From assembly GCF_016722895.1 (NCBI RefSeq), contig NZ_JAEQNA010000001.1, positions 682,001 to 746,000 on the forward strand: a stretch of 64,000 nt of DNA. Reading direction: 5' to 3'. The translations under genes and the position numbers were made by a program. This stretch comes from Ramlibacter aurantiacus. GTDB lineage: Bacteria; Pseudomonadota; Gammaproteobacteria; Burkholderiales; Burkholderiaceae_C. Positions 11,467 to 26,269 of this stretch are shown here, piece by piece. The notes below the pieces were generated by a model, which saw nothing but the letters and a program-made list of their open reading frames with translations, was not told where the DNA came from and made no database searches. Position 1 is the first letter of the stretch. The number at the start of each line of letters is the position of its first letter.

Positions 11467-12792
11467 CTACGGCCCGCCCTGCGACAGCGCCATGCGATCA
11501 CGCACGCGTTGCTGCTCGGCGTGCATGCGCACGCAGATCGGGTGCCGCCGGAATTCCGCCGTGGCGCACCGGAAGACGGTGCACATGTCACGCGCCAGTG
11601 AGTTGCCTTGGCGGCAGCCCAGCTCGACCCACGCGGGCTGCGGACGGCGGATCGCCCGCCTGGCGGGCGCTGGCGCGGGAGATGCGCCGTCCGCCGAGCG
11701 TGGCGCGGCCGCCCGCACGATCGCCGGTTGCGGTGAAGGGCTGGCGCGGGCAGAGGGCGCCGGTTCCGCCCCCACCGGCTGCCGGGGTGCAGCAGGACCG
11801 GCGGGTGCATCAGGCGGCTGGTCGGCCACCGGCTGCGGGGCCGAGGGTGGCTGGGGCGTGCTCGCGGCGAGCGGTTCTGACGGTGGCGGCGACGCCCCGA
11901 GCACGATCACTTCTTCGCCAGCCGCGATCGACTCCCGAGCCGGGATCACGGCGGCCGCTCCGGGCGGCGTGGGCCGAGCTTCCAGGTAGCTCCAGCCGGG
12001 TGCCACGCGCGGCACCGTGGGCGGGGCCGTGGCCAGGCTGGCGAGGTAGGCGATCGTGGCCAGGCATGCCGCCGCCACGGCCGTCTCGAATCGCTGCAGC
12101 CGCGGCGTGGCGACCGCCGATGCCGCGCTGGCGGCGGCCACGGGCGCGGCAACCGGTTCGCTCGATCCGGCCCAGAGCGGCCGGCCCAGGGCCGACTGCA
12201 AGGCCGCCGAGAATTCAGCCGCGCGCTGGAAGCGCGCTTCGGGGTTCGACGACAACGCGCGCTGCAGCACGGTGTTCACTGCCGGCGGCAGCTCGGGTCG
12301 CGCCGCCTGCGCGGGCAAGGCCGGCGCACCCAGGATTCGCTGCGGCACGCCCGGAAAGGGCGGCACACCGGTCAACAACTCGTAGATCACCACCGCGGCG
12401 GCATACAGGTCCGCCCGGTGGTCGACCGGCAGCCCCAGCACCTGCTCGGGCGCCAGGTGGGGCGGCGCCTCCTGCGCGGCGCTGGGCGCCGGCCCGGCTG
12501 CAACGGGCCTGTCGAAGCCGATCACCTGCAGCCGGCCGCTGCGGCTGACCAGCAGGTGCTGGAGGTCGATGCCGCCGTGCACCCTGCCCTGCGCGTGCGC
12601 GAAGTCCAGGGCGGACAGCAGCTCGGCCGACAAAGCCATGCCTTTCATGGCCGGCAGGCGGCCGGTGCGGGCAAGGTGCTGCGCCAGCGTCTCGGCGCCC
12701 TGCGACAGCGAGGCGTCGGCAATGTTGGGGTGCCGCAGGCCTTCGGCGTGGTCGGCCGGGACGTCGTCCGGCGGTGTCGCTTGCTGCTCCAT
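11467..12792 (-). CDS. Membrane-anchored Ser/Thr pseudokinase, N-lobe missing
   Basis: A 441-residue protein related to bacterial Ser/Thr kinases. The N-lobe (glycine loop and VAIK lysine) is absent. The catalytic loop reads HGGIDLQHLL (72-81) instead of HRDLKPxN, and the DFG position reads GFD (92-94). APE (114-116) and the DHRADLY block are kept, so the C-lobe fold is probably intact but catalysis is not expected. A single transmembrane helix near residue 240 is followed by a long Pro/Ala-rich periplasmic stretch and a C-terminal tail with four Cys (GCRQ...DMC...FRC...PIC). ATG 12792 is preferred; an in-frame GTG at 12882 would add 30 residues. Confidence 0.8.
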   Translation of the reverse strand: MEQQATPPDDVPADHAEGLRHPNIADASLSQGAETLAQHLARTGRLPAMKGMALSAELLSALDFAHAQGRVHGGIDLQHLLVSRSGRLQVIGFDRPVAAGPAPSAAQEAPPHLAPEQVLGLPVDHRADLYAAAVVIYELLTGVPPFPGVPQRILGAPALPAQAARPELPPAVNTVLQRALSSNPEARFQRAAEFSAALQSALGRPLWAGSSEPVAAPVAAASAASAVATPRLQRFETAVAAACLATIAYLASLATAPPTVPRVAPGWSYLEARPTPPGAAAVIPARESIAAGEEVIVLGASPPPSEPLAASTPQPPSAPQPVADQPPDAPAGPAAPRQPVGAEPAPSARASPSPQPAIVRAAAPRSADGASPAPAPARRAIRRPQPAWVELGCRQGNSLARDMCTVFRCATAEFRRHPICVRMHAEQQRVRDRMALSQGGP

Positions 12793-12885
12793 CGGCCCAA
12801 TGGTCGAGATTCGAACCCGGGCCGCTTGTAGGACGGCGGAGCGTCCGATCGTGGGGCGCGCCGGCTCCGATCCTTTTGCCACTTC

Positions 12886-14508
12886 TTACCGGATGGCGAA
12901 GGCGCCGCCCGCGTGACCAGTCACCGAGAAGCGCCCCGCCCCCTGGTAAGTGAGTTCGATGAGGGCCGCGGGCTCACCTTCCAGCCAGCCCGGCGCGCCG
13001 ATGGCGGTGCGGTTGCCCTGCGAGGTGTAGATCAGGCCGCCACGGCCGTCGGGGCCGATGTCGCCCACGGCGATCCAGTTGCCGTCCATGGAGAGGCTCA
13101 GGCCGCGATACCAGCGGTTCTCGCCGTACCAGTTCCAGGTCCAGCCGACATCGGTGCTGACGAAGGTGTAGCCGTTCCAGCCGCGGGCGTCGTTGCGCGG
13201 CTCGAGCGCGCTGAAGACGCGGCCATCGCCCGAGACCGCCACGCCCGACCAGTTGCTGTAGGCGAAGCGCATGGTCCAGGTGGCGCCGCCGTCGGTGCTG
13301 ATCCACTGGTAGCCGCCGTTGTCGACGGCCACCATGCGGCGGCCGTCGTAGCTGGCGGCCGCGAAGGACCAGTTGCCGGTGGGCGGCGGATCGCCGGTGA
13401 TGTCGCGCCGGGTCCAGCTCTGGCCCCCATCCTCGGAGACATAGACGCCCTGGCGCGCCGGGTCGCCGCCATAGAACGAGGCCACCGCGACCAGGCGGTC
13501 ACCGGTCTGTGAACCGGCGATCTCGCGCCAGTCGGTGTTCGCAGTTCCGGCCACCGGGCTGAACGTGGCGCCGCCGTCGTTGGACAGGTGGATCGATCCT
13601 CCAGTTTCGGTGGCCACGATGCGCTGGCCGTCGGCGGAGATGAACACGCCGCCCCAGTAGCGCGTGCCGGTGCGGCCGGCCCAGGTGGCGCCCGAGTCGG
13701 CCGAGGTGTAGAGCTGGCCCAGGCGATCGACCGCGGCCAGGTAGCGGCCATCGGGCGAGATGGCGATGTCGCCCCAGCCGGCCGTCGGTGCGTTGCTGCG
13801 GGTCCAGCTCTCGCCGCCATCGCGCGAGAAGTGGATGCTGCCGCCGCGCGCGCCGGCGACCAGGGTGTTGCCGTCGGCCGAGGTGGCGATGGCCGACCAC
13901 GCCTGCGCGGGCAGCGACGCATCCACCGTGCGCGGCACGTAGCGCGTGCCCGGCACCGTGTTGCCCGGAAGTCCGATGGTGTCCACGTGCTGGCCGTCGT
14001 GCTGCGCGATGCGCCAGCGCACGCTGCCGCTGCCCGTGACGCCCACCGTATCGCCGACCCGCAGGTCCTCGTTGCGAGGCAGCCGCAGGGTGTAGGTGCC
14101 GGTGGCGCCGGCCGGCACGGTGTAGCTGGCGTTCGGCGCCATCTGCAGGTCGGCCGGAGCGGGCGCGGGCGCTGGAGCGGGTGCTGGAGCGGGCGCGGGC
14201 GCTGGAGCGGGTACTGGAGCGGGCGCGGGCGCTGGAGCGGGTACTGGAGCCGGTGCCGGCCCAGGCGCCGGTTCGGGTGCCGGCGCGGAGGACGGCGGCG
14301 GTGCGGAACCTCCAGGCGCCGTTGCCCCGCCGGGGTCCGCCACCGGGTCGGCCACCTGCACCGGCGCGCTGGCCACCGGCTCGGCCGCCGGACCTTCACC
14401 ACCACCGCCACCACCGCAGCCCGCCACCAGCAGCGCCACGGCCCATCCCACCGCGCGCAGGCCAGCCGGCGCGCCGCGTTTGTCATTGCTCGTTGTCTTC
14501 AATTCCAT
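12886..14508 (-). CDS. Beta-propeller (sialidase/YCF48-like) lipoprotein
   Basis: A 540-residue exported protein. The N-terminal signal ends in a lipobox (LLVAGC) followed by a Gly run. Then comes a Pro/Ala low-complexity linker of about 70 residues encoded by tandem DNA repeats, and a C-terminal propeller with repeated BNR-like Asp-box motifs (SRDGGESWTR, SADSGATWAG, SNDGGATF, SEDGGQSWTR, STDGGATW). Such folds bind or display ligands at the cell surface. No sialidase catalytic residues are claimed. The gene ends about 94 bp upstream of the pseudokinase start on the same strand. Confidence 0.85.
   Translation of the reverse strand: MELKTTSNDKRGAPAGLRAVGWAVALLVAGCGGGGGGEGPAAEPVASAPVQVADPVADPGGATAPGGSAPPPSSAPAPEPAPGPAPAPVPAPAPAPAPVPAPAPAPAPAPAPAPAPAPADLQMAPNASYTVPAGATGTYTLRLPRNEDLRVGDTVGVTGSGSVRWRIAQHDGQHVDTIGLPGNTVPGTRYVPRTVDASLPAQAWSAIATSADGNTLVAGARGGSIHFSRDGGESWTRSNAPTAGWGDIAISPDGRYLAAVDRLGQLYTSADSGATWAGRTGTRYWGGVFISADGQRIVATETGGSIHLSNDGGATFSPVAGTANTDWREIAGSQTGDRLVAVASFYGGDPARQGVYVSEDGGQSWTRRDITGDPPPTGNWSFAAASYDGRRMVAVDNGGYQWISTDGGATWTMRFAYSNWSGVAVSGDGRVFSALEPRNDARGWNGYTFVSTDVGWTWNWYGENRWYRGLSLSMDGNWIAVGDIGPDGRGGLIYTSQGNRTAIGAPGWLEGEPAALIELTYQGAGRFSVTGHAGGAFAIR
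14161..14250. repeat. In-frame 30-bp tandem repeat inside the lipoprotein gene
   Basis: Three near-identical 30-bp units at 14161, 14191 and 14221 encode the Ala-Pro linker. Because the unit is a multiple of three, slippage changes linker length without breaking the frame. Confidence 0.9.
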
Positions 14509-14542: not shown

Positions 14543-15532
14543 CTAGCGGGCGTGCAAGGCGGCCTGCAGCCGGCCCATGCCTTGCTCCCAGTGATCCGCC
14601 ATGCCCTGCAGCAGGTCGTCGGCGGCGAGCGCGCGGCCGGTGCTCACGGCGCGCGCGCCCTTGAGGATCAGGGCCTTGCCGGCTTGCGCGATGGCATCGA
14701 AGCCATCGGCCGCTTCATCGAGGCCCGCCCGCCCCTGCCCGGCCTGCCAGCGCAGGTGCGCGGCCAGCAGCTCGAAGGCCGCGCCGGCCTGGCGCACGGT
14801 GGCGAACGCCCACAGGTGGTAGTGCGCCAGCCCCGCCTGCTGCAGCTGCGGCAGTTCGTGCCCCAGGCGCTCGGCAAAGCGCGTGAACGGGTTGCTGCGC
14901 GGACGCCAGGCCACGTGCTCGCGCAGCAGGTCCCAGGCGATGGAGGACAACTCGGCCGGGCTCGCGCGCTCGAGCCGATCGATGCGCACGGTCTCCGCGA
15001 ACAGCGGCATGAATGCCGGGTCCGCGGGCGCATCGAGTCGGAACAGCCCGCGGAAGTCTTCGCCCTGCAGCTCGAAATAGCCGGCGTTGTGGAAGTACCC
15101 CAGCCGCTGCGCCGACACGTCCAGGTCGGCCAGCAGGATGGTGGTCTTGGTGTGCTGGCCGCGGTAGTCGGTGCCGGCGGTGTCGGGCAGCCACCAGGCG
15201 TCGGCCTCGGTGCTGACCAGGCGGCCGGCGCCCAGGTGCTCCTGCGCGTGCGCCAGCAGCGGCTTGTAGACGGTGAGCTCCTGCACGTCGATGCCGTACA
15301 GGCGGCGCAGGTCGGACGAAGGCGGCTTGAAGAAGGTCCACTGGTCGCCCTCGAAATCCATCGACGCGGTGAAACCGAGCATGGCCTGCGGGTCGAGCCC
15401 GAGCGCGTGCACGAAGCCCACCCACAGGTCGGCGTAGCAGTTCTTCTCGGGCCAGGCCACGCTGTCCGATTGCAGCGGATGGCGCTGGTAGCTCTCGGGC
15501 CGCAGCTGCGGCAGGACGGCGAGCCGGCTCAT
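14543..15532 (-). CDS. DUF1839 family protein of an aminoacyl-carrier-protein cluster
   Basis: A 329-residue soluble protein of the DUF1839 family, which has no settled function. Visible blocks are WPEKNCYADLWVGFVHALG near residue 28, FFKPPSSDLRRLYG, and a conserved acid-rich GYFHNAGYFELQGEDF. A Cys in NCYADLW could be mechanistically relevant, since the Cys/His residues early in the protein recall papain-like or transferase folds; that is only a guess. ATG 15532 overlaps the ligase stop by 4 nt, so the protein is made together with the amino acid:[carrier protein] ligase. A role in moving or releasing the aminoacyl group is inferred from this linkage. Confidence 0.85.
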   Translation of the reverse strand: MSRLAVLPQLRPESYQRHPLQSDSVAWPEKNCYADLWVGFVHALGLDPQAMLGFTASMDFEGDQWTFFKPPSSDLRRLYGIDVQELTVYKPLLAHAQEHLGAGRLVSTEADAWWLPDTAGTDYRGQHTKTTILLADLDVSAQRLGYFHNAGYFELQGEDFRGLFRLDAPADPAFMPLFAETVRIDRLERASPAELSSIAWDLLREHVAWRPRSNPFTRFAERLGHELPQLQQAGLAHYHLWAFATVRQAGAAFELLAAHLRWQAGQGRAGLDEAADGFDAIAQAGKALILKGARAVSTGRALAADDLLQGMADHWEQGMGRLQAALHAR

Positions 15533-16449
15533 GCGTCGTTCCACAGCAGGCTGCGCACGTCCCGCGGCCAGTCGGCCGGGTCGTAGCCATGGGTCTTGAC
15601 CAGGGCCAGCGTCACGCGCTCCAGGCCAAAGCCCAGGCACGCGGTGTGCGCCACCCCCCCGTCGTGCTGACGGATGCCGAAGCGCGAGGTGAAGTGCTCC
15701 TGGTGCCAGTTGAACGAGCAGATGGCGGTGGGCTTCTCGCGCGAGATCACCGGGCACAGGATCTCGAACTTCAGGCGCTGGTCCACCTGGCTGGCGGCCA
15801 TCATGCGGCCGGCACGGCCGAAGAAGGGATCGGAGGCGACGTCGCTGGCCACCGGCAACTTCAGCCGGCCCAGCAGCTCCAGCCCCCGCTGCAGCCAGGC
15901 ATCGCGCCAGGCCTGCACGTCTTCCGGGCGACCGACGCGGATGTACTCGCGCATGCGGAAATGCTGCAGCCGCGTGGGCTCGGGCGAGGGCTCGTGGCGG
16001 AACACCCAGTTCATGATGGTCACCAGGCGTCCGCCCTGCGGCAGCAAGCCGCTGAAGGTGGGATAGACCGGATAGCAGGCCGCCGGCGTGAGCATGACCT
16101 CGGTGGGCGACAGCAGGTCTTCCCACCGTTCGCCGGCGTGGACCCGCTCGGACAGCTCGCGCGCCTCGCGGTCGCTGCCGGTGAAGCTGTGCACCGAGCC
16201 CGCCAGCTGCGGAAAGTTGTCCAGGTAGCCCAGCTGCTCGATCAGCCGGCGCGCCAGGATGGGCGGGAAGGTGAGCTCCTGGGCGCCGTCGGGCGCGGCC
16301 TCGCGAACCACCAACGCGTCGAAGCGCCGAAGGATGTCCTCGAACACCGGCCCGCGGCCGTAGGCGCCGGGCACGCCGGTGGGGATGATCAGGCCATGGG
16401 CGACGAGTTCTTCGGTGAAGCCGTCGATGTCGTAGGTGCGGGTGTCCAT
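15529..16449 (-). CDS. Amino acid:[carrier protein] ligase (SerRS-like)
   Basis: A 306-residue class II aminoacyl-tRNA-synthetase homologue resembling the catalytic core of atypical (zinc-dependent) seryl-tRNA synthetase. It lacks the N-terminal tRNA-binding arm. Motif 2 is FRHEPSPEPTRLQHFRMREY and motif 3 is GFGLERV. Cys125, Glu168 and Cys271 fit the zinc site described for this family. Known members activate a small amino acid (Gly or Ala) with ATP and attach it to the phosphopantetheine of a separate carrier protein rather than to tRNA. The carrier (18177) and its activating enzyme (17700) are encoded nearby on the other strand. The start shares one nt with the acyl-CoA-dehydrogenase-like stop (TGATG), so the two are coupled. 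The amino acid used here is unknown. Confidence 0.9.
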   Translation of the reverse strand: MDTRTYDIDGFTEELVAHGLIIPTGVPGAYGRGPVFEDILRRFDALVVREAAPDGAQELTFPPILARRLIEQLGYLDNFPQLAGSVHSFTGSDREARELSERVHAGERWEDLLSPTEVMLTPAACYPVYPTFSGLLPQGGRLVTIMNWVFRHEPSPEPTRLQHFRMREYIRVGRPEDVQAWRDAWLQRGLELLGRLKLPVASDVASDPFFGRAGRMMAASQVDQRLKFEILCPVISREKPTAICSFNWHQEHFTSRFGIRQHDGGVAHTACLGFGLERVTLALVKTHGYDPADWPRDVRSLLWNDA

Positions 16450-17621
16450 CAGATGGCGTCCTTGTAGACCAGCAGCATCGACGCGTTCTTGGCGGCGATG
16501 CGTTCGTTGGAAATCATGAGGGAGCCCGAGAGCGCGTCCCGATAGTGGCGCCCCAGGCTGAAGGGGCTGTCGTTCTTGTAGCCCCCGATGCCCACCACCT
16601 GCAGCGCGCCGTGGACGATCTGCGGCGCCGCTTCGGAGCTGGCGATCTTGAGGTTGTTCAGGCGCAGGGCCCAGCCCATGCCCATGAGGTCCTCGCGGTC
16701 CTCGGCGGCCGCGTCGAAGTCACGCGCGGCCGACACCCAGTTCTGCTTCATGGCCTGCAGCTTCACCTGCAGGTGGGCCAGCGCCTGCGCCGTGGGCGGC
16801 ACGCTGCCGGGCCGCTGGCGCGCCTGGCCGCGCACGAATTTCGCGGCGCGCTGCACGGCACCCGCCGCGATCCCCCACCACAGCGCCGCCCACAGGATGT
16901 GCGAGGTGGGCACCATGCTCTGGGCCGAGCTGTCGGCGAACGAGCCGGGCAGGATCTGCCGCGCGTCACCGCCAGCGGCGAGCTTGAAGCCGGGGCTGCA
17001 GGTGCCGCGCATGCCCAGCGTGTCCCAGCTGGTCGTCTGCTCCAGCGTGCAGTCCTGGCGGCGCACCATGACCAGCACCTGGTCGCCGGCGGCCGCCTGC
17101 TCGTCGCGGCGGCAGGTGACCAGGATGGCATCGGCGTGCGCGCAATAGGAGCCGGTGGTGGCGTCCTTTTCAAGGGCGAAGCGGTCGCCGTCGACGCGCA
17201 CCGCGCAGATGCTCGAGCGGGTGTCGCCGAAGGTGCCGTTCTCCGAGGTCATGGACGCCAGCAGGTCCTGCCGGCGCACCGTGTCACGCATCCAGTCGCG
17301 GAAAAACCCGCTGTCCGCGCCGTGTCGCGTGATGCATGCGAGCTGGCTGTAGTGCATGGCCAGCACCATGGCGCTGGAGCCGCAGCTTTGTGCCAGCACC
17401 GCGCAGGCCTGCGCCTGCTCCAGCAGGCTGGCGCCGGCTCCCCCGAACTCGCGCGGCACGCTGGCCGAGAGCACCCCCTGTTCGCGCAGCGCGGCCAGGG
17501 TCTCGATCGGAAAGCGCGCCTTCGCGTCCACGTCGTCGGCATGCGCCGCCGCGATGTCCGTGGCCACGCGGCGCACCGCATCGAGGAGTCCGGACCGCGC
17601 CGGCACCTCTTCGTGTTTCAT
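16449..17621 (-). CDS. Acyl-CoA-dehydrogenase-fold flavoprotein acting in the carrier-protein cluster
   Basis: A 390-residue protein with the acyl-CoA dehydrogenase fold: an N-terminal helical domain (FPIETLAALREQGVLSASVPREFGGAG), a middle beta domain (ASMTSENGTFGDTRS) and a C-terminal helical domain (GALQVVGIGGYKNDSPFSLGRHYRDALSG). The usual catalytic Glu of the C-terminal EGT motif is not seen; this region reads SGSLMISNERI. In pyrrole-forming pathways, relatives oxidise prolyl groups on carrier proteins, so oxidation of an aminoacyl thioester is a reasonable inference here. A hydroxylase-like reaction is the alternative. ATG 17621 follows a GGGAGAAGACC ribosome site. It is first gene of the leftward operon. 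Confidence 0.85.
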   Translation of the reverse strand: MKHEEVPARSGLLDAVRRVATDIAAAHADDVDAKARFPIETLAALREQGVLSASVPREFGGAGASLLEQAQACAVLAQSCGSSAMVLAMHYSQLACITRHGADSGFFRDWMRDTVRRQDLLASMTSENGTFGDTRSSICAVRVDGDRFALEKDATTGSYCAHADAILVTCRRDEQAAAGDQVLVMVRRQDCTLEQTTSWDTLGMRGTCSPGFKLAAGGDARQILPGSFADSSAQSMVPTSHILWAALWWGIAAGAVQRAAKFVRGQARQRPGSVPPTAQALAHLQVKLQAMKQNWVSAARDFDAAAEDREDLMGMGWALRLNNLKIASSEAAPQIVHGALQVVGIGGYKNDSPFSLGRHYRDALSGSLMISNERIAAKNASMLLVYKDAI

Positions 17622-17699
17622 TGGTCTTCTCCCTGTGCCTTGCTGAGACAGCGGGGGCGACAATAGCGCGCCGGCCAACGAGCTGGAGGAGTTCTGCTC
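17622..17699. promoter_or_regulatory. Divergent promoter region of the aminoacyl-carrier cluster
   Basis: The 78 bp between the leftward (17621) and rightward (17700) operons must carry both promoters. A GGAGGA ribosome site for the rightward GTG start is at 17685-17691 and GGGAGAAG serves the leftward gene. No clear sigma-70 boxes were recognised in the GC-rich sequence. Shared control of both arms is inferred from the spacing. Confidence 0.5.
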
Positions 17700-18161
17700 G
17701 TGAAGCATCACATTTCGAAACTGACTGATCCGTTGCTCAGCGATATGCCGGCAACCGGGCGAGGTCTTGTCCGACTCGGCATCGACCTGGCGCACATTCC
17801 GCGCATCCGCGAGTCGCTGGCCCGCTTCGGCGACTCGTTTGAGCACAGATTGTTCACGCCTGAAGAAATCGCTTATGCACGCGCGGCGCCGGCGCTCCAT
17901 GCCGAGCGACTCGCCGCGCGCTTCGCCGCGAAGGAAGCGACGATCAAGGCGCTGAGCCTGGCCGATGCCGGCGTGAACTGGCGCGAGATGGAGGTGGTGC
18001 GCGAAGCCGACGGCCACTGCCACATGCGACTGCATGGCCGCGTGCTCGACATCGCGCGGACGGCCGGTGTCGACCGGCTGCTACTGAGCCTCACGCACGA
18101 TGGCGACTATGCGGCGGCCGTGGTCGGGGTGCTGTCCGACAAGGTCGAGCCAGCCGGCTGA
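17700..18161 (+). CDS. acpS: Holo-[acyl-carrier-protein] synthase-type phosphopantetheinyl transferase
   Basis: A 153-residue AcpS-type enzyme that transfers 4'-phosphopantetheine from CoA to a carrier-protein serine. The family's two signatures are present: LGIDLAHIPRI (Asp29) and RFAAKEATIKAL (Lys78-Glu79), the magnesium and CoA-binding residues. The GTG start at 17700 has a strong GGAGGA site 9 nt upstream. A shorter start at ATG 17745 would drop an atypical 15-residue leader. It lies 15 bp before the carrier protein gene, so it is very likely dedicated to that carrier rather than being the housekeeping enzyme. Confidence 0.92.
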   Translation: MKHHISKLTDPLLSDMPATGRGLVRLGIDLAHIPRIRESLARFGDSFEHRLFTPEEIAYARAAPALHAERLAARFAAKEATIKALSLADAGVNWREMEVVREADGHCHMRLHGRVLDIARTAGVDRLLLSLTHDGDYAAAVVGVLSDKVEPAG

Positions 18162-18176
18162 ACAGAATTCGCCGCC

Positions 18177-18434
18177 ATGACAGCCACCACCTCCATCGAT
18201 TCGACCATCCGCCGCGTGCTGCGCGAGCACGGACGCCTGTCCACCGACCCCGGCCAGCTCGCCGCCGACGCGGACCTGTACCAGGCCGGCATGACCTCGC
18301 ATGCCAGCGTGAACGTGATGCTCGCGCTCGAAGGCGAGTTCGACGTGGAGTTCCCCGACCACCTGCTCAAGCGGCACGTGTTCGGCAGCATCGCGTCGAT
18401 CGAGCGGGCGCTCGGGGAACTGGACCTGCAGTAG
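18177..18434 (+). CDS. Small acyl/aminoacyl carrier protein
   Basis: An 85-residue four-helix carrier protein. The prosthetic-group attachment site is Ser41 in DLYQAGMTSHASV, equivalent to the DSL motif of ACP, and the acidic helix-II recognition surface follows (LALEGEFDVEFPDHLL). With the neighbouring phosphopantetheinyl transferase and amino acid:carrier ligase it should hold an aminoacyl thioester. The sequence is too different from fatty-acid ACP to be the housekeeping copy. Confidence 0.92.
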   Translation: MTATTSIDSTIRRVLREHGRLSTDPGQLAADADLYQAGMTSHASVNVMLALEGEFDVEFPDHLLKRHVFGSIASIERALGELDLQ

Positions 18435-18465
18435 GGACGAAGGCGCAGGCACGAGGTCCACCAGC

Positions 18466-20949
18466 ATGCGCGCCATCTGGCAATGCGGCGCCACCGAGCC
18501 GGGCGCACCGCCGCCAGCCGACGCGGCCGAGTGGGTGGCGATGGACGGGCCGGGCACCGCGGCGGCCGCCTTGCGCGCGCACGGACTCTGGTCGCTCGAC
18601 GCCCCGCCGCGCGACTTCGACGCGCAGGACTGGTGGTTCCTCGCGCGCTTCGATGCGCCGCATGACGCGGTCCAGGTGCTCGGCTGCGACGGCCTCGCCA
18701 CGCTGGCCGAGGTGTCGCTGAACGGGCAGGCGCTCTTCGCCAGCGACAACATGTTCACCCGGCACCGGCATGCGTTGCCACCCGGCGTGCTGCGGCCACG
18801 GGACAACGAGCTGCGCATCCACTGCCGCTCCCTGGGCGCGGCCCTCAGGCAGCGGCGCCCCCGACCCAACTGGCGCGCCCCCATGGTCCCCGACACGCAG
18901 CTGCGCTGGTTCCGCACGACGCTGCTCGGGCGCACGCCCGGCTGGTCGCCGCCGGCCGCCGCCGTGGGCCCATGGCGCGAGGTGTGGCTGCGCGCCACGC
19001 ACGAGATCCCCATCGAGCACCGGCTGCAAGCCCGCCTGGAAGGCGGCCATGGGGTGTGCGAGCTCGACGGGCCGGCATCGGAGTGGCCGGCCGGCACCGA
19101 ATCGCCCCGGCTGGTGCTGCAAGGCCCCGACGGGCAGGTGCACGCGAGCGATGTACGTGCCAGCGATGGCCGCTTCGCCGCTCGCCTGGACGTGCCCCGC
19201 CCCGCCCTCTGGTGGCCGCACACCCACGGCGAACCCGCGCTCTACGAGGCGACGCTGGAACTGCGCCTGCATCGCGGCGGCACCGCGCGGCACGCGCTGG
19301 GGCGGGTGGGGTTTCGCGACCTGCAGGTGGACACCGCGGGCGGCCGGTTCGCGCTGCGCGTCAACGGCGAAGCCGTGTTCTGCCGCGGCGCCGGCTGGTT
19401 TCCCCTCGACGCGGTGAGCCTGCGCTCCGAGACGCGGGCCTGCCGCGGCACGCTGCTGCGCATGCGAGAGGCCGGCCTGAACATGCTGCGCCTGCCAGGC
19501 ACCGGCGTGTACGAGGACGATGCCTTCTATGCCCAGTGCGACGAGCTGGGCCTGATGGTCTGGCAGGACTTCATGTTCGCCAGCATGGATTACCCGTTCG
19601 ACGACGCCGGCTTCGCGGCCAGCAGCGAACGCGAGGTGCGCCAGCAACTGCGGCGCCTGGCGCCGCACCCCTGCCTGGCAGTGCTGTGCGGCAACAGCGA
19701 GGTCGAGCAGCAGGCGGCCATGTGGGGCGCCGCGCGCGAGCTGTGGCAGCCGCGCTTCTTCCACGAGCAGCTGCCCGCGGAGTGCCGCGAGCTCGCGCCG
19801 GGCGTGCCTTACTGGCCCTCGAGCGCGCACGGCGGCGCGTTCCCGCACCAGGCCGATGCCGGCACCACCTCGTACTACGGCGTCGGCGCCTACGAGCGGC
19901 CACTGGCGGATGCCGTGGCGAGCGGCCTGGGCTTCGCGACCGAATGCCTGGCGTTCGCCGCCGTTCCTTCCAACGAGACGCTGGCCCGGCTGCCCGGCGG
20001 CGCGTCCACCCGCGTGCACCACCCCGCGTGGAAGAGCCGCACGCCGCGCGACCTGGGCGCGGGCTGGGACTTCGACGACGTGCGCGACCACTACGTGCGC
20101 GAGCTGTGCGGCGTGGAGCCTGCGCGGCTTCGCCATGCCGACCATGAGCGTTACCTGGAGCTGGGCCGCCTGGCGGTCGCCGAGGCCATGGGCCACGCCT
20201 ACGGCAGCTGGCGGCGCGCCGACGCGCGCTGCGGCGGCGCGCTGCTGCTGCAGCTGCGCGACTTCTGGCCCGCAGCGGGCTGGGGCGTGCTGGACGACCA
20301 GGGCCGCGCCAAGTCCGGATGGCATGCGCTGCGTCGCGCACTGCAGCCGACGGGGCTGCACCTGAGCGACGAGGGCGCGAATGGACCCGTGGCACACCTG
20401 GTGAACGAGACCGCGCAGCCGGTGCAAGCCGTGCTGGAGTTCACCGCCTGGCGCGACGGCGAGGTGCGCGTGGCATCGGCCGAACAGCCGCTGACGATGG
20501 AACCGCGCTCACGTCGCAGCGTGCCGCTGCTGGGCCTGATGGATCACTTCATGGACCTGAACCACTTCTGGCGTTTCGGCCCGCCGGCCTGCGATGTGCT
20601 GCACGCGAGGCTGCGCGCCGCCGGCGCTGACGCCCCGCCGCTGGCCGAGGCCTTCCTGTTTCCGCTGGGGCTGGCGCCGCTGCTGGCGAACCGGCGCGCC
20701 CTGGACCTGCGCGCCACCGTGACCGCGATGAACGACGAACAAGCTGAACTCGAACTGCAGACCCGTGCCGCAGCCATCGGCGTGCACCTGGACCTGCCCG
20801 GCTGGGAGGCCGTCGACGACCACCTGCACCTGGCGCCGGGCAGCACTCGACGCATCGAGCTGCACCGTGTCCGCGCCGGTGCAGCGCTGGCCGGGACCGT
20901 GGCGGCGCTGAACGGGCCCGGCCCGGTGCCACTGGAGAAGCGCGCATGA
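18466..20949 (+). CDS. GH2 beta-mannosidase-like glycoside hydrolase
   Basis: An 827-residue GH2-type protein with an N-terminal jelly-roll sugar-binding domain, an immunoglobulin-like domain and a TIM barrel. Catalytic positions are recognisable: acid/base Glu in CGNSEVEQQ (family GNNE or GNSE) and nucleophile Glu in GFATECLAF. The WWPHTHGEP and WQDFMFA blocks are typical of beta-mannosidases. No signal peptide is seen, so it works in the cytoplasm. It sits 31 bp after the carrier protein and overlaps the next gene by 4 nt. Its presence with a carrier protein suggests that a sugar conjugate is a substrate or product, or that the barrel was recruited as a transferase; both are inference. Confidence 0.88.
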   Translation: MRAIWQCGATEPGAPPPADAAEWVAMDGPGTAAAALRAHGLWSLDAPPRDFDAQDWWFLARFDAPHDAVQVLGCDGLATLAEVSLNGQALFASDNMFTRHRHALPPGVLRPRDNELRIHCRSLGAALRQRRPRPNWRAPMVPDTQLRWFRTTLLGRTPGWSPPAAAVGPWREVWLRATHEIPIEHRLQARLEGGHGVCELDGPASEWPAGTESPRLVLQGPDGQVHASDVRASDGRFAARLDVPRPALWWPHTHGEPALYEATLELRLHRGGTARHALGRVGFRDLQVDTAGGRFALRVNGEAVFCRGAGWFPLDAVSLRSETRACRGTLLRMREAGLNMLRLPGTGVYEDDAFYAQCDELGLMVWQDFMFASMDYPFDDAGFAASSEREVRQQLRRLAPHPCLAVLCGNSEVEQQAAMWGAARELWQPRFFHEQLPAECRELAPGVPYWPSSAHGGAFPHQADAGTTSYYGVGAYERPLADAVASGLGFATECLAFAAVPSNETLARLPGGASTRVHHPAWKSRTPRDLGAGWDFDDVRDHYVRELCGVEPARLRHADHERYLELGRLAVAEAMGHAYGSWRRADARCGGALLLQLRDFWPAAGWGVLDDQGRAKSGWHALRRALQPTGLHLSDEGANGPVAHLVNETAQPVQAVLEFTAWRDGEVRVASAEQPLTMEPRSRRSVPLLGLMDHFMDLNHFWRFGPPACDVLHARLRAAGADAPPLAEAFLFPLGLAPLLANRRALDLRATVTAMNDEQAELELQTRAAAIGVHLDLPGWEAVDDHLHLAPGSTRRIELHRVRAGAALAGTVAALNGPGPVPLEKRA

Positions 20950-22715
20950 CGCAGGCCACCCCGCTTCGCCTCCGGCTCGACGAGGGCTGGTGCCATGCCT
21001 GGTGGCATGCGCCAGCGGCACCCGCGCGCGGGCTCACCGTCGTGTTGTGCCCACCCATCGGCTACGAGGCCGTCGCCAGCTACCCCACCCAGGTGCAGCT
21101 GGCCCGGCACCTGGCCGCGGCCGGACTGCCGGTGCTGCGCATCGATTACCACGGCACCGGTGACTCGGACGGCGACGACACGCAGCCCGGCCGCGTCCCC
21201 GCCTGGCTGGCCAGCGTGCAGGCCGCGGTGGCCGAGGCCATGCGCCTCGGTGATGGCGGCGCCATCGCGTTGGTGGGCATCCGAATGGGCGCCACGCTGG
21301 CGGCCGAAGCCGCGGCCCGACTGGGTGGCGTGGACAGCCTGCTGCTGTGGGCGCCCTTGCCAGGCGGCAAGGCGTTCGTGCGCGAGATCCGGGCCGCGGG
21401 CGACTCGGCGGATGATGGATCGCTGCACGGATTCGGCTTCCACTATGGCACGCAGACGGTGCGTGACCTGGAGGCGCTGGACCTGCGCCAGCTGGCCACG
21501 CCGCCGGCGCGGCGCGCCTGGCTGATTCCCCGGGACGACGTGACCGTGGCCGGGCCACTGCCCCGCCTGCTGTCGGCCCTGGGCGTGGACACGCGGTTTG
21601 ACGGATTGCCCGGCTACGCCGCGATGGTCTCGGGCGAGCCGCGTGGCGGCGTGCTCGATGCCCCCACGCTGGACGCGCTCACGCGGTGGCTGTGCGAATC
21701 GCCCGCCGCGGTGCCGCGCGAGCTGTCGCCGCGGGACCCCGCGCCCGCGCGGTGCGGCCACACCGGCGGCGTGGTCGAGGAAACGCTGTGGCTGGGACCG
21801 ACGCACCCGCTCGCAGGCGTGCTGGCGACGCCGCTGCGCGCCGACGATCGCCAGCGCCAGACCGGCGTGATCCTGCTCAACGTCGGAGCCAACTACCGCG
21901 TCGGTCCGCACCGCCTGTACGTCAAGGCCGCACGCGCGATGGCCGCTGCCGGCTGGCCCACGCTGCGGCTGGACCTGGCCGGTCTCGGCGACAGCCCACC
22001 GCATCCGGGCCAGGGCTGGGCCAGCCTGTACGACCGCGACGCCACCCAGGACGTGCGGCAGGCGATGGACGCCCTGGCCGCGCGCGGCTGCCGCGAGTTC
22101 GTGCTGATGGGCGTGTGCTCGGGCTCGTTCGTGGCTTTCCAGTCGGCCCTGGTGGACGAGCGCGTGGCGTCCGTCGTGCTCATGAATTCGCGCCTTCTGG
22201 AATGGACGCCGGGGCAGCCGGGCGACGCCTGGCAAAGCTCGATGCAGCAGCATGCCAAGTCCAGCGACTGGTACCTGCGCGCAGCCCTCACGGCCGAGCC
22301 GTGGCGGCGGCTGCTGCGCGGGGAGGTCAACGTGCGGCTCGTGGCGCGCCGCTTCGCGGACCTGGCCCGCGCCCGGCTGGCACGCCTTCTTTCAGGCGAC
22401 GGACACGACCCGCTGCGCGCCCGCATGGAAGGCCTGTGCCGGCGCGGCACCGACGTGCTGATGGTGGTGTCCGACGCGGACGATGGACGCGACTACGTGG
22501 AGTTCCACTTCGGCGCCGAAGGCCGGCGCATGCGGGCGCACCCGAACTTCCGGATGGTGTACGTGAAAGACGCCGACCACACCTTCTCCAGGCCGGGCAA
22601 CCAGGACCAGGTGCTGCCGGAGCTGCTGCGGCACCTGGAGGCTCGCGCCGCGGGGCTGGACCAGCCGGCGCAAGAGGCGCACACCTTGTTGGTGGGTCCG
22701 GCGCACGCCGGGTGA
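20946..22715 (+). CDS. Double alpha/beta-hydrolase with non-Ser nucleophile positions
   Basis: A 589-residue protein with two alpha/beta-hydrolase domains. Domain 1 (about 25-260) has the nucleophile elbow GIRMG, which puts Arg113 where the nucleophile should be, so it is probably inactive. Domain 2 (about 300-575) has GVCSG with Cys391 at that position. A possible acid lies in VVSDADDGRDY, and a His in DADHTF. The paired hydrolases of exosortase-linked polysaccharide loci have similar odd elbows. As last gene of the rightward operon it could release or transfer the aminoacyl group from the carrier thioester (inference). No signal peptide is present. Confidence 0.87.
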   Translation: MTQATPLRLRLDEGWCHAWWHAPAAPARGLTVVLCPPIGYEAVASYPTQVQLARHLAAAGLPVLRIDYHGTGDSDGDDTQPGRVPAWLASVQAAVAEAMRLGDGGAIALVGIRMGATLAAEAAARLGGVDSLLLWAPLPGGKAFVREIRAAGDSADDGSLHGFGFHYGTQTVRDLEALDLRQLATPPARRAWLIPRDDVTVAGPLPRLLSALGVDTRFDGLPGYAAMVSGEPRGGVLDAPTLDALTRWLCESPAAVPRELSPRDPAPARCGHTGGVVEETLWLGPTHPLAGVLATPLRADDRQRQTGVILLNVGANYRVGPHRLYVKAARAMAAAGWPTLRLDLAGLGDSPPHPGQGWASLYDRDATQDVRQAMDALAARGCREFVLMGVCSGSFVAFQSALVDERVASVVLMNSRLLEWTPGQPGDAWQSSMQQHAKSSDWYLRAALTAEPWRRLLRGEVNVRLVARRFADLARARLARLLSGDGHDPLRARMEGLCRRGTDVLMVVSDADDGRDYVEFHFGAEGRRMRAHPNFRMVYVKDADHTFSRPGNQDQVLPELLRHLEARAAGLDQPAQEAHTLLVGPAHAG

Positions 22716-22785: not shown

Positions 22786-25224
22786 TCAATGGCCCGCCTC
22801 ATTTTTCTCCGCACCCTCGATGATTTCATCTTCCAGTCGGCAAGCCTCGGCAATGATGCAGGTGTAGAGCCGGCTGACGAATTCCCCATCGAGCCCCAGT
22901 GTTCTGCCCAACTCGGCGCGAGTCCTTTTCACGTGCTCCACTCGCGCGGGTTGCATCATGGAAATTTGGTTTCGCTTCTTGAACTCGGCAACTTCTCTGC
23001 AAACGCCCAGGCGCTGCCCAAGTCGGTCGAGAATTTCCTTATCCAGCGTGTCAATCAGTGTTCTGTAGGGAGCGAGTCCTTCGTGCGCCGGGGCAGCAGG
23101 AGCCTGAGCTGGCTCGTCGCTTAGCCGTGGCGCAGCCATCACGCGCCGCACCGCTTCCATCGGCGCGCGAGCCTTTAGCACCGTCTCGTCAACCTCGTCC
23201 TGCGCCACAGACAGGGCCGTAATGGCGCCGCCCACTCCAATCGTGACGCCCTGTTCGGTGACGACCACAGTCCGGATGACGATGTTGAAGTCGCAGGCGC
23301 CGCTCAAGGAGAAGTACCCGATGGCGCCCGAATAGACGCCACGTGCCTCCCCCTCGAGCTGATCGATAAGCGCCATTGTCCGGATCTTGGGCGCACCCGT
23401 CATGGACCCTCCGGGGAACGCGGACCTGAATGCGTCCACCAGCGTCACTTCGGGATTCAGCGTGCCTCGGATGGTCGACACCATCTGGTGCACCGTCGCA
23501 TAGCTCTCGATTTCCATGAGGCGCGGCACGTGGACGGAGCCGATCTCGCATATGCGCCCCAGATCGTTGCGCATGAGATCCACGATCATGAGATTTTCCG
23601 CGCGGTTCTTCTCGCTGTCCGCCAAGTCTTCCTTGAGGCGCAAATCCTCCGCCTCGTCGCCACCTCTGCGCGCGGTGCCCTTGATGGGCTTCGATTCGAT
23701 CTGGCGGCTTCGGTCTACCCTCAGAAAGCGCTCGGGTGATGAACAGACTACTGTCATTCCGTCGTATTGAAGGAAGGCCGCATAGGGCGCGGGATTTAAT
23801 TGCCGCAGCGTCTTGTATAGCCGGAATGTATCGGGTTGAAGATTGGCGGTTAGCCGGTTAGTGAGGCACACCTCGTAGGTCTCGCCGTCGGTAATGGCCT
23901 TCTGGCAGTGTTCAACCAGCTTGAGGTACGCATCGCGATCGTCCCGGAACACAAATAGCGGATCAGGGAGGGACATAGAAGGCAGCGCCGGTGCTGCCAG
24001 AACGGCCGATCCAGCGGGGCGCATAGCGGCCAGCCTTGCCTCAATCTCAGACAGCCACTCTCCGGCACGATCCCCGTTGCCAGGCGTATCCAGGCAAAGC
24101 ATATAGATCTCGCCTTCTGCATGATCGAAGACGATAAAGCGATCAACGAACACGAACTGGGCGTCCGGTTGAGAAGACGCATGGGCCGTTTTGGCGCCGC
24201 ACTCCTTCTTCATCTCATAACCCATGTACCCAAGGAAGCCGCCGTGGAAGTCGAAGGGCAGATCAACATGCGGCAGCACATGATTCGCCAAAACGGTATC
24301 GATGTGATCGAAGACGCTGCACTGCGACTTGCGCGGGCGTCCTCGTTCGAGGATGGTGAGTTCCCCGCCGTGTACGTCATAGCTGAGAGCAGAGGCATTC
24401 GGCCCTTCCGCGTTTCCCATGAACGAGAACCGCGACAGCCCTGGGGCGACGAGGCTGCTATCGAGCCAGAACGGACGGTCAGTCCCTAGGTACAGCGCCT
24501 CGAAGACATCTACTGCCTGCACGCCCAGCCGTTTTTTACGCCAATGAAGCTCAAACAGCCCCTTGGCTTTGGCTTGGGCTGGCACTCGCTGCGATGGCTC
24601 GACCGACAGTCGATCCGGCTCTTGGCCCAGCCGCTGTGACGGCGAAAATTGAGGTCTGGTCAATCTAAAAAAGTTTGACAACAGCTTGTGGCCCCATTCG
24701 GAGCAAACAGACTCTGGATGAAATTGCACGCCGTAAATGCGCTTGTGCCGATGGCGCAGCCCCATGACGATGCCGTCCTTCGTGTGGGCGACAGCCTCCA
24801 GGTCCTCGGGTAGCTCCGTCGCGATCAGGGAGTGGTAGCGGATCACGGAGAAAGGACTCGGGATACCGTCGAACAACTCCATGCCGTCGTGAAACACATC
24901 ATCCGGGCGGCCATGCATTGGCTTTGGCGCATGGGTAACCTTGCCCCCGAACAGATGCGCGATGCCTTGGAGACCTAGGCATATACCAAGGACAGGCACG
25001 CTCGCCTGCTCGATGATCGCACGCGAAACGCCAAAGTCAGCCGGCCGTTCAGGGCGTCCTGGGCCTGGCGAAATGACGACGTTATCAAAGTCGAGCTCGC
25101 GGATCTCCTCCCAAGAAACTTCGTCGTTCTTGAAAACGAATGGCACTTCTCCCGTGAGCTCGGACACCATTTGAAAGATGTTGTAGGTGAACGAGTCGTA
25201 GTTGTCGATGAGCAATGTCTTCAT
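22786..25224 (-). CDS. Fused aminodeoxychorismate synthase (PabA-PabB) with C-terminal chorismate-mutase-type domain
   Basis: An 812-residue three-domain enzyme. Residues 1-190 are a class I glutamine amidotransferase with Cys82 in GICLGLQG and the His-Glu pair in QFHPES. Residues about 230-705 are the chorismate-binding synthase with PIKGT near residue 514; the Lys marks aminodeoxychorismate synthase, where anthranilate synthase has Ala. Residues about 725-805 are an AroQ-type mutase (LIDTLDKEILDRLGQR...VAEFKK). Such a mutase next to ADC synthase is the PapA-PapB step pair that makes 4-amino-4-deoxyprephenate. No ADC lyase is nearby. GC content is visibly lower than in neighbouring genes, suggesting transfer. 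The gene is convergent with the carrier-protein cluster. Confidence 0.9.
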   Translation of the reverse strand: MKTLLIDNYDSFTYNIFQMVSELTGEVPFVFKNDEVSWEEIRELDFDNVVISPGPGRPERPADFGVSRAIIEQASVPVLGICLGLQGIAHLFGGKVTHAPKPMHGRPDDVFHDGMELFDGIPSPFSVIRYHSLIATELPEDLEAVAHTKDGIVMGLRHRHKRIYGVQFHPESVCSEWGHKLLSNFFRLTRPQFSPSQRLGQEPDRLSVEPSQRVPAQAKAKGLFELHWRKKRLGVQAVDVFEALYLGTDRPFWLDSSLVAPGLSRFSFMGNAEGPNASALSYDVHGGELTILERGRPRKSQCSVFDHIDTVLANHVLPHVDLPFDFHGGFLGYMGYEMKKECGAKTAHASSQPDAQFVFVDRFIVFDHAEGEIYMLCLDTPGNGDRAGEWLSEIEARLAAMRPAGSAVLAAPALPSMSLPDPLFVFRDDRDAYLKLVEHCQKAITDGETYEVCLTNRLTANLQPDTFRLYKTLRQLNPAPYAAFLQYDGMTVVCSSPERFLRVDRSRQIESKPIKGTARRGGDEAEDLRLKEDLADSEKNRAENLMIVDLMRNDLGRICEIGSVHVPRLMEIESYATVHQMVSTIRGTLNPEVTLVDAFRSAFPGGSMTGAPKIRTMALIDQLEGEARGVYSGAIGYFSLSGACDFNIVIRTVVVTEQGVTIGVGGAITALSVAQDEVDETVLKARAPMEAVRRVMAAPRLSDEPAQAPAAPAHEGLAPYRTLIDTLDKEILDRLGQRLGVCREVAEFKKRNQISMMQPARVEHVKRTRAELGRTLGLDGEFVSRLYTCIIAEACRLEDEIIEGAEKNEAGH

Positions 25225-25357
25225 GATCCCTGATGTCGTATCTGCAGCGAAGCACGGGTCGCTACCTCCCCTCCTGCTCTAGTTCGTCGGGCGTTCGTAT
25301 CTGAATGACCATCCAGCTACCCGCATGGCCTGTTCGGCAAGACTTCGGGTTCTCGCT

Positions 25358-26239
25358 TCACGAGCCTTGGTGACCGCTGTCTAAGTCTTTCAGCGCGGAG
25401 AAGATTGCCGCACATTGCCGGGTACGTTCAGACAGACCCGGTCCAAAGGCGGCAGATAGTTCAGCGAGGTATCGGGCGAAGCGGGCGCGGTCGCCTTGTG
25501 CCGACCACACATCGAGATCGGTCAGAACTTCGCGCATTTCGCGCCGTGCGTCAGCGGCGTAGCCGTTCACGGCCTGAATGTCGGAGTAGACATTCGGATT
25601 GCCAGTGGCGATCCTGCTCAAAAGCAGACTCATGACCTGGAACGGCGGCGTGCCGGAAAGCTCTGCGATGACAGACGGCGGCAAGTCGGTCACAAGTCGG
25701 CCCCATGCCAGAACGGCAGCGTGAACGCCTGCCTGCATCACCGCCATGGTCCGGTCATGCTCATCGACCGACATGTCGATCGTGCGCGCTCCCCAGCCGT
25801 GTAGGCGTCGCCTGAAGTCCTCCGTGCGGGGGCCTCCCCGCATGCTCACCCAGGCGAGAGATTGCCCGGCGAAGCCAATGTCGGGTCCAAACAGCGGATT
25901 GAGTGAAAGGCACTCTGCATGTACCACTTCGCTCAGCTTGGCCAAGTAGGGACCCTTGACCGACAACGTATCAACCAGCAAGGCACCCGGCCGCAGCTCG
26001 CCGAGCAGGCCCGCGATAGCCTGTGCCGCAACATTGTCGGGAAGGCAGTTGAGGACAACGTCGGAGGCATGAAGCGCCTGTTTGAGCGTGGCATGCGGCT
26101 CGAGAACATCCGCCTGCATCACCCGTGCACCTGCCCTGACATCTACCCGATGCACGTCGACCCGGTCATCCGTCGTGAGGTGAGAAATGAACAGACCGGC
26201 GACTTGGCCAGCGGCGCCCAGGACAGTGATTTGCAACAT
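25358..26239 (-). CDS. Prephenate-dehydrogenase family protein, probable 4-amino-4-deoxyprephenate dehydrogenase (PapC-like)
   Basis: A 293-residue TyrA-like protein. It has an N-terminal nucleotide-binding segment (VLGAAGQVAGLF), then VDTLSVKGP and NPLFGPDIGFAGQS, which match the SVK and HPMFGP blocks of prephenate dehydrogenases. The catalytic-His region reads EHDRTMAVMQAGVHAA. The reaction would be NAD-dependent oxidative decarboxylation of 4-amino-4-deoxyprephenate to 4-aminophenylpyruvate, which a general aminotransferase can convert to 4-aminophenylalanine. That assignment rests on its position beside the fused ADC synthase-mutase. Ordinary prephenate is the alternative substrate. It is 30 bp from the MFS gene and 133 bp from the synthase, on one strand. 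Confidence 0.82.
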   Translation of the reverse strand: MLQITVLGAAGQVAGLFISHLTTDDRVDVHRVDVRAGARVMQADVLEPHATLKQALHASDVVLNCLPDNVAAQAIAGLLGELRPGALLVDTLSVKGPYLAKLSEVVHAECLSLNPLFGPDIGFAGQSLAWVSMRGGPRTEDFRRRLHGWGARTIDMSVDEHDRTMAVMQAGVHAAVLAWGRLVTDLPPSVIAELSGTPPFQVMSLLLSRIATGNPNVYSDIQAVNGYAADARREMREVLTDLDVWSAQGDRARFARYLAELSAAFGPGLSERTRQCAAIFSALKDLDSGHQGS

Positions 26240-26269
26240 GAGAAGACCAACAGGCCAATAAATGCCGCG

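Follow-up and report, generated by a model that had tools for sequence, protein, structure and literature searches.

A conserved aminoacyl-carrier-protein cassette in Ramlibacter aurantiacus and the predicted CcbD-type fold of its DUF1839 protein

What becomes of an aminoacyl group once an amino acid:[carrier protein] ligase has loaded it on its carrier? Structures of such ligases reportedly date back to about 2010, and no pathway is said to be known for them. The question is raised by positions 14543-22715 of a 64,000-nucleotide stretch from Ramlibacter aurantiacus (contig NZ_JAEQNA010000001.1, positions 682,001 to 746,000), hereafter called the window, where a ligase gene of this type lies among six others. 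The locus is a cassette already known as a gene neighbourhood, and its chemistry is putative. We established its gene set and conservation, the dependence of its DUF1839 protein on the ligase, the predicted fold of that protein and the state of the active sites. The reading that we favour, and to which we give an even chance, is that the cassette makes an aminoacyl group and delivers it by a carrier-protein route, DUF1839 passing it on to an amine-bearing sugar.

The seven genes and the predicted fold of DUF1839

The locus consists of seven intact genes in two divergent operons, with 78 bp between the divergent starts:

14543..15532, minus strand: DUF1839 protein, 329 residues, papain-like C32/H148, proposed aminoacyl-carrier-protein condensing enzyme (PF08893, 346.6 bits against a cut-off of 22.5; predicted structure)
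15529..16449, minus strand: amino acid:[carrier protein] ligase, seryl-tRNA synthetase (SerRS)-like, 306 residues (NF005479, 406.5 bits; PDB 4h2w)
16449..17621, minus strand: flavoenzyme of the acyl-CoA-dehydrogenase fold without catalytic glutamates, about 390 residues (PF02771 and PF00441, both over cut-off)
17700..18161, plus strand: AcpS-type phosphopantetheinyl transferase (PPTase), 153 residues, GTG start behind GGAGGAG (PF01648, 62 bits)
18177..18434, plus strand: aminoacyl carrier protein, 85 residues, Ser41 (NF005480, 96.9 bits)
18466..20949, plus strand: GH2 beta-mannosidase-like protein, 827 residues, E412/E493 (PF22666 and PF00703, both over cut-off)
20946..22715, plus strand: double alpha/beta-hydrolase, 589 residues, R113 in the first half, C391 and D544-H545 in the second (Pfam matches in both halves; model)

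The leftward operon runs flavoenzyme, ligase, DUF1839, and the rightward one AcpS, carrier, GH2 glycosidase, double hydrolase. Genes overlap by 4 bp (DUF1839/ligase and GH2/hydrolase) or 1 bp (ligase/flavoenzyme), with gaps of 15 bp between AcpS and the carrier and 31 bp between the carrier and GH2. All seven genes announced by the original prediction are thus present, intact and of the families it named, as judged by Pfam and NCBI family profiles over their cut-offs and by PDB matches, and the overlaps said to couple the ligase with the flavoenzyme homologue and DUF1839 were confirmed.

The DUF1839 protein was modelled from a 65-row alignment with a mean pLDDT of 96.6 and a pTM of 0.93. All 19 Foldseek matches of the model at E<=0.001 were AziU3/U2, CtaG or CcbD. 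VIA-align 2 ranked CcbD highest (Z 19.4 over 287 residues, root mean square deviation 3.6), followed by AziU3/U2 (18.3) and CtaG (17.1); after these three proteins (Z 16.5-19.4) the next row dropped to Z 8.6. The match to the three biosynthetic proteins spans about 285 residues and takes in the helical C-terminal half, whereas plain papain-type cysteine proteases scored Z 6-7 over about 150 residues. The presumptive catalytic residues C32 (76/77 rows) and H148 (77/77) are conserved; rows shorter than 70% of the window protein were left out of this and the other residue counts, as were four rows with internal stops or X (DUF1839 of L094, ACAD of L019, AcpS of L046 and ABH2 of L061). C32 and H148 are 116 residues apart, compared with 112 in CcbD (C19-H131) and 117 in CtaG (C11-H128), a comparison of spacing only, without residue alignment, in which the CcbD and CtaG numbers come from PDB titles and a review. 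E180 (77/77 rows) and D159 (75/77) are candidates for a third catalytic residue. The predicted fold supports DUF1839 being an enzyme that transfers an aminoacyl thioester, a role suggested from the outset for either DUF1839 or the hydrolase.

In genomes G158 and G550, DUF1839 is duplicated: the copy on the ligase side has lost the Cys (Arg or Gln in its place) and the second copy retains it. The duplicates of these two genomes lie at L107:7464-8309 and 12259-13185 and in loci L014 and L108.

The ligase exceeds the cut-off of 357 bits of the 'amino acid--[acyl-carrier-protein] ligase' family over residues 10-304 of its 306, and its best PDB match is the Bll0957-type ligase 4h2w (E 1.3e-77). It carries no additional N-terminal domain: the serine--tRNA ligase model PRK00960 was matched only at positions 199-503 of 518, so that the N-terminal part of seryl-tRNA synthetases is absent, in agreement with the missing tRNA arm noted earlier. 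C125, E168 and C271, which we take to be zinc ligands as in the Bll0957 structures, are identical in 88 of 88 aligned rows. The carrier protein (cut-off 72 bits) has Ser41 in 81/81 rows; among PDB entries it matches the aminoacyl carrier protein 4h2w_C (64.6 bits) and Atu2571 (2jq4, 64.1 bits), and more weakly aminoacyl carrier protein 1 of 4h2s (24.7 bits). AcpS, with a family cut-off of 25 bits, keeps D29 and E79 in all 36 rows. As judged from its family, the ligase probably loads an amino acid on the carrier. One actinomycete metagenome-assembled genome (MAG), locus L090, has two ligase genes within one cassette.

The most probable start of the flavoenzyme is the ATG at 17621, which GGGAGA precedes; the residue numbers used here count from 17630 and 3 should be subtracted to fit the 17621 start. 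Position 373 is Ile or Val and position 243 is Ser, Ala or Thr, never Glu, in 79 of 79 rows. We take these positions to be those of the MCAD and IVD catalytic glutamate bases of acyl-CoA dehydrogenases, an equivalence read from the alignments of PDB matches. The eight aligned rows of Bll0957-type flavoenzymes lack Glu at both positions too. Because neither base position is ever Glu, a plain dehydrogenase reaction is unlikely and we set it aside, although it is not disproved. A single-sequence PDB search placed two 'acyl-CoA dehydrogenase type 2 domain' structures and DnmZ on top. The enzyme is most likely a monooxygenase, a reaction already proposed in 2010 for the redox enzyme of the cassette (PMC2922099). 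Of the oxidising flavoenzyme originally envisaged, then, oxidation by monooxygenation fits better than simple dehydrogenation.

The best PDB matches of the GH2 protein are beta-mannosidases (5n6u, E 3e-59). Its catalytic pair is kept: E412 is present in 67/70 rows, with Asp in the other 3, and E493 in 70/70. By resemblance to GH2 motifs, these are presumably the acid/base and the nucleophile, respectively. According to Pfam matches and a predicted model, the last gene product of the rightward operon fuses two alpha/beta-hydrolase domains. The nucleophile elbow of the first half, G-x-R-x-G, has Arg at R113 in 44 of 52 rows and Gly in 7, and that of the second half, G-x-C-x-G, has C391 in 52/52 rows; D544-H545 are likewise kept in 52/52. 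Only the second half keeps a nucleophile, namely Cys. An assignment as exosortase A system-associated hydrolase 1 or 2 was rejected, as both matches fall below the curated cut-offs (TIGR03100, 152.9 against 168.45 bits; TIGR03101, 98.8 against 202.75 bits). The first half is TIGR03101-like and the second TIGR03100-like, that is, distant relatives of exosortase A-associated hydrolases 2 and 1.

Distribution and gene linkage

From the 578 relatives that a contig scan with the ligase alignment returned, we took the best 80, so that the sample leans towards near relatives and locus counts are not independent. With further stretches, 116 loci were collected, 111 of them with a ligase above 150 bits and 72 with at least 7 kb on both sides. 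Among the 65 well-flanked loci outside the Bll0957-type clade described below, the carrier was found in 65, the flavoenzyme and DUF1839 in 62 each, GH2 in 60, the hydrolase in 51 and AcpS in 21. Members of Pseudomonadota, Myxococcota and Gemmatimonadota, as well as one actinomycete MAG, carry the cassette genes side by side, which is more than chance and bears out the expectation of a gene set conserved across genomes. Ligase and DUF1839 genes are co-directional in 95 of 96 locus pairs, with a gap of at most 200 bp in 92 (median 27). The most common order is carrier-flavoenzyme-ligase-DUF1839-GH2-hydrolase in one operon, and the divergent arrangement is that of the window and its Betaproteobacterial relatives. 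Together with the families of ligase, carrier and AcpS, this conservation supports the proposed aminoacyl-carrier-protein pathway. The idea of a PPTase of its own stands in that AcpS sits in the cassette, but AcpS is not exclusive to it: the genome of the window has 4 PF01648 matches, and AcpS was found in no more than the said 21 of the 65 well-flanked loci.

Where close relatives have the seven genes, these are not unlinked: two Ramlibacter loci (L020 and L021) keep their order. A ligase over the cut-off was found in 8 of 300 genomes of the order, that of the window included, and in none of the 15 same-family genomes listed; the distribution is thus patchy. Among 397 Pseudomonadota genomes at least 90% complete, 33 have a ligase over the cut-off and 20 have DUF1839. 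All 20 also have the ligase, and 13 genomes have the ligase only. Thus, DUF1839 depends on the ligase and not the reverse.

In a tree of the 111 ligases, nine DUF1839-less loci of the Bll0957 type form one well-supported clade on a branch of 1.22; one of its members, L100, is close to Bll0957 itself (714 bits). We found nothing common to all nine neighbourhoods that could substitute for DUF1839. The other DUF1839-less loci (L023, L041, L075 and L088) are scattered on the ligase tree, on which the DUF1839 label needs 5 changes, and loss of DUF1839 therefore also happens. Locus L075, from a Stagnimonas MAG, encodes AcpS, carrier, flavoenzyme, ligase and hydrolase followed by a condensation-adenylation-carrier protein of the non-ribosomal peptide synthetase (NRPS) type (L075:8593-11778), and neither DUF1839 nor GH2 was found within the 16.8 kb covered. 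This suggests that another condensing enzyme can stand in for DUF1839, and is in keeping with a condensing role of DUF1839 where the cassette has its usual form.

When predicted reading frames from 88 stretches were clustered, further families turned up in at most 9 of them; the one exception, a family of 21, presumably consists of antisense shadow reading frames. The reading-frame prediction behind this clustering was crude and missed some true genes, the window ligase among them.

Proposed route, rival explanations and neighbouring genes

We infer the substrate, the acceptor, the reaction of the flavoenzyme and the roles of GH2 and the hydrolase as follows. AcpS would attach phosphopantetheine to Ser41 of the 85-residue carrier, and the SerRS-like ligase would load the carrier thiol with a small amino acid after adenylating it, glycine or alanine being probable; both steps are taken from the families. 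The flavoenzyme may then modify the carrier-bound group, monooxygenation being the most likely reaction. DUF1839 would accept the aminoacyl group from the carrier by its Cys32, His148 serving as the base, and pass it to an amine, as CcbD does. An amine-bearing sugar is the probable acceptor and, in some relatives, probably a cell-surface or exopolysaccharide precursor. Lastly, GH2 and the Cys-nucleophile hydrolase could act on the conjugate or the acceptor by trimming, release or a second acyl transfer.

A sugar-containing product, as first suggested, is plausible because the acceptor of CcbD is an amino sugar, GH2 keeps its catalytic pair and polysaccharide genes lie beside some cassettes, but the window cassette itself has no such neighbours. 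Within 10 kb of the ligase, the polysaccharide marker PF02397 was found in 4 of 23 genomes of the cassette kind (G158, G550, G285 and G113, three of them in one family and two of those in one genus) and in 0 of 14 Bll0957-type genomes. A Poly_export gene lies about 6 kb from the ligase in G119. In L107, ManC, a Wzc-type kinase and a CRP-type regulator are encoded between or beside the cassette genes; flanking genes code for a WecG-type transferase in L022, a flippase-type protein and a sugar-transfer ATP-grasp protein in L114, and Poly_export and glycosyltransferase proteins in L041. We sampled 123 of 153 picked flank proteins from 18 loci, several of one genus (L014, L127, L128 and L129 were dropped entirely for size, as were two long proteins). 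They include 7 Glycos_transf_1, 3 Bac_transf, 3 Glycos_transf_2, 3 GNVR and 2 MannoseP_isomer matches, 3 of the proteins being of the Wzc type. The tallies for flanks and controls list 25 families each, and that for the 140 control proteins has none of the families just named, although low counts there are possible. The same flanks also hold 5 tRNA-synt_2, 5 radical-SAM and 3 elongation factor P (EF-P) proteins, which lend no support to a polysaccharide context.

Flanks of loci L120-L126 and their relatives (family f98) encode class II lysyl-tRNA synthetase-like and radical-SAM proteins and in some cases EF-P (L120:3881-4942), as in EF-P lysylation; this may be synteny only.

In Burkholderia pseudomallei, becG codes for a protein with an acyl-CoA-dehydrogenase domain and is among seven insertion mutants with reduced biofilm; the exopolysaccharide cluster to which it belongs also encodes a cyclic-nucleotide-binding regulator, ManC and a glycoside hydrolase (PMC5507470). 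The layout of that cluster resembles L107 by gene description, and the two may be orthologous.

Several observations weigh against delivery to an amine-bearing sugar by a CcbD-like DUF1839. No relatives of DUF1839 were detected in the PDB by sequence, either with a 7-row profile (E<=1) or with a 65-row profile (E<=10), and a common fold is no proof of a common reaction. A published classification assigns DUF1839 to the papain-like superfamily and gives its triad as C-(T/S)-H, the His being in a swapped position (PMC10318531). The nine Bll0957-type loci keep the ligase and the flavoenzyme with no DUF1839 or GH2, so that transfer by DUF1839 is not universal for such ligases. The best PDB matches of the flavoenzyme profile are butyryl-CoA-type dehydrogenases, with DnmZ seventh. 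As to the acceptor, in 19 of the 23 genomes PF02397 is missing from the 10 kb on either side of the ligase, and the two PF02397 genes of the window's genome are about 246 kb and 914 kb away from its cassette, which is not beside polysaccharide genes. Moreover, the insoluble biofilm polysaccharide of Burkholderia cenocepacia H111 is described as a neutral Gal-Glc-Gal-Man repeat with no amino sugar or substituent; the authors discuss it as Bep, it was measured in NaOD, and no aminoacyl group was reported (PMC7084887). That the H111 cluster carries the cassette is only assumed.

The H111 polysaccharide also bears on the nature of the bond. Since NaOD would strip ester substituents and hide them, the aminoacyl group might go to a hydroxyl of an exopolysaccharide as a base-labile decoration, and not to an amine. 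A polysaccharide without amino sugar (PMC7084887) and the polysaccharide genes beside the cassette in the four PF02397 genomes and in L041 would suit such an ester. We nevertheless consider it unlikely: CcbD forms amides, in most of the genomes searched, that of the window included, polysaccharide markers are absent from the vicinity of the cassette, and the link to the H111 cluster is itself an assumption. If the sugar were incidental, the cassette could instead act as a stand-alone mini-NRPS, the product being a small peptide-like or N-oxidised amino-acid metabolite such as a signal or a chelator. The cassette is mostly self-contained, as the clustering indicates, an NRPS module lies beside it in L075, and a flavin N-oxygenase, DnmZ, is among the PDB matches of the flavoenzyme; however, a GH2 with both catalytic Glu residues in 60 of the 65 well-flanked loci is hard to explain without a glycoside, and this makes a sugar-free product rather improbable in our view. 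Doubt may also be raised about DUF1839 itself, which might be a thioesterase or a protease-like editor that only hydrolyses the aminoacyl-carrier protein. A papain-like fold with Cys and His would serve either activity, acyl-enzyme chemistry being common to both, but the full-length match is to three biosynthetic proteins and not to plain cysteine proteases, and we regard a mere editor as highly improbable.

Returning to transfer by DUF1839 to an amine-bearing sugar, a bolder version is possible, though doubtful as a whole. DUF1839 would found a widespread class of CcbD-like condensing enzymes in which a ligase derived from an aminoacyl-tRNA synthetase takes the place of the NRPS adenylation domain, building, by a logic like that of lincosamide synthetase, an N-oxidised glycyl or alanyl sugar amide that would go into cell-surface glycans in some Gram-negative soil and water bacteria and into a small conjugate in others. 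If DUF1839 is CcbD-like, a direct test of the missing transfer step becomes possible, in which the four purified proteins (ligase, carrier, AcpS and DUF1839) are offered a set of amino sugars. The condensation between carrier protein and sugar of the lincosamide type would have a broad counterpart in Pseudomonadota, Myxococcota and other phyla, and an aminoacyl-tRNA-synthetase paralogue would have a use outside translation.

The genes next to the cassette in the window (22786-27487, minus strand) code for a fusion of glutamine amidotransferase, aminodeoxychorismate synthase and chorismate mutase, then for a prephenate-dehydrogenase-like protein and a major facilitator superfamily protein; they look to us like a p-aminophenylalanine-type pathway (PapA/B/C logic). 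We left these aromatic genes out of the system because they have no relatives beside the cassette in the 87 + 20 loci listed and because their G+C content is lower (0.59-0.62 against 0.70 for the window). On the other side, a BNR/sortilin-type repeat protein (12886-14508, minus strand) adjoins the cassette; it is also beside that of L020 (67% identity) and not elsewhere among the 87 loci listed. Two identical reading frames of 81 residues (8789-9034 and 9215-9460, plus strand), 426 bp apart, form an intergenic direct repeat.

Comparison with known systems

CcbD and LmbD join an alkylproline or proline, bound to a carrier, to the lincosamide amino sugar through an amide; CcbD has a Cys-His-Glu triad, works through an acyl-enzyme by a ping-pong mechanism and accepts many acyl groups (PMC12945683). 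Like DUF1839 here, whose fold is known from a model only, these enzymes combine the full-length fold (Z 19.4) with Cys and His at a like spacing. They work with a stand-alone adenylating enzyme and a carrier domain, and their acceptor is an amino sugar (PMC12945683, PMC4351081). The cassette differs from them in that its DUF1839 has no detectable sequence likeness, its activating enzyme derives from an aminoacyl-tRNA synthetase and not from an NRPS adenylation domain, lincosamide genes are absent, and a flavoenzyme and GH2 are added. We found no link between DUF1839 and CcbD in print, subscription literature being mostly outside the search. AziU3/U2 of azinomycin and CtaG of closthioamide biosynthesis, as described by their PDB titles, have the same fold at Z 16.5-18.3 and belong to different pathways; the DUF1839 pairs of G158 and G550, each with one Cys-less copy, recall the two-protein AziU3/U2 complex.

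With the Bll0957 system (PDB 3mey, 4h2s-4h2y) the cassette shares a homologous ligase with the C/E/C residues and a ligase gene next to that of the flavoenzyme, bll0957 and bll0958 being adjacent by locus tag (PMC10888616). Unlike the window cassette, the Bll0957-type loci, nine in number, form a clade of their own and have neither DUF1839 nor GH2.

The closest precedent is a note in proof of 2010 by Iyer and colleagues, which describes a ligase neighbourhood with a carrier, a redox enzyme, a conserved uncharacterised protein and a glycosidase (PMC2922099). Ligase, carrier, 'monooxygenase/dehydrogenase', the Atu2574 protein and a glycosidase, together with the same proposed logic, are common to that neighbourhood and the window cassette; this is also the only paper in which our search found Atu2574. 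Both the gene neighbourhood and an amide-ligase role for the DUF1839 protein were thus in print in 2010 and are not supported as novelties. In the passage in question the uncharacterised protein is assigned no fold, and AcpS and the double hydrolase are not named. Our reading largely agrees with the 2010 prediction and lends it structural support from a modelled fold. What the present analysis adds is the CcbD-type fold predicted for DUF1839, the conservation of the active sites, the counts across genomes and the split from the Bll0957 type.

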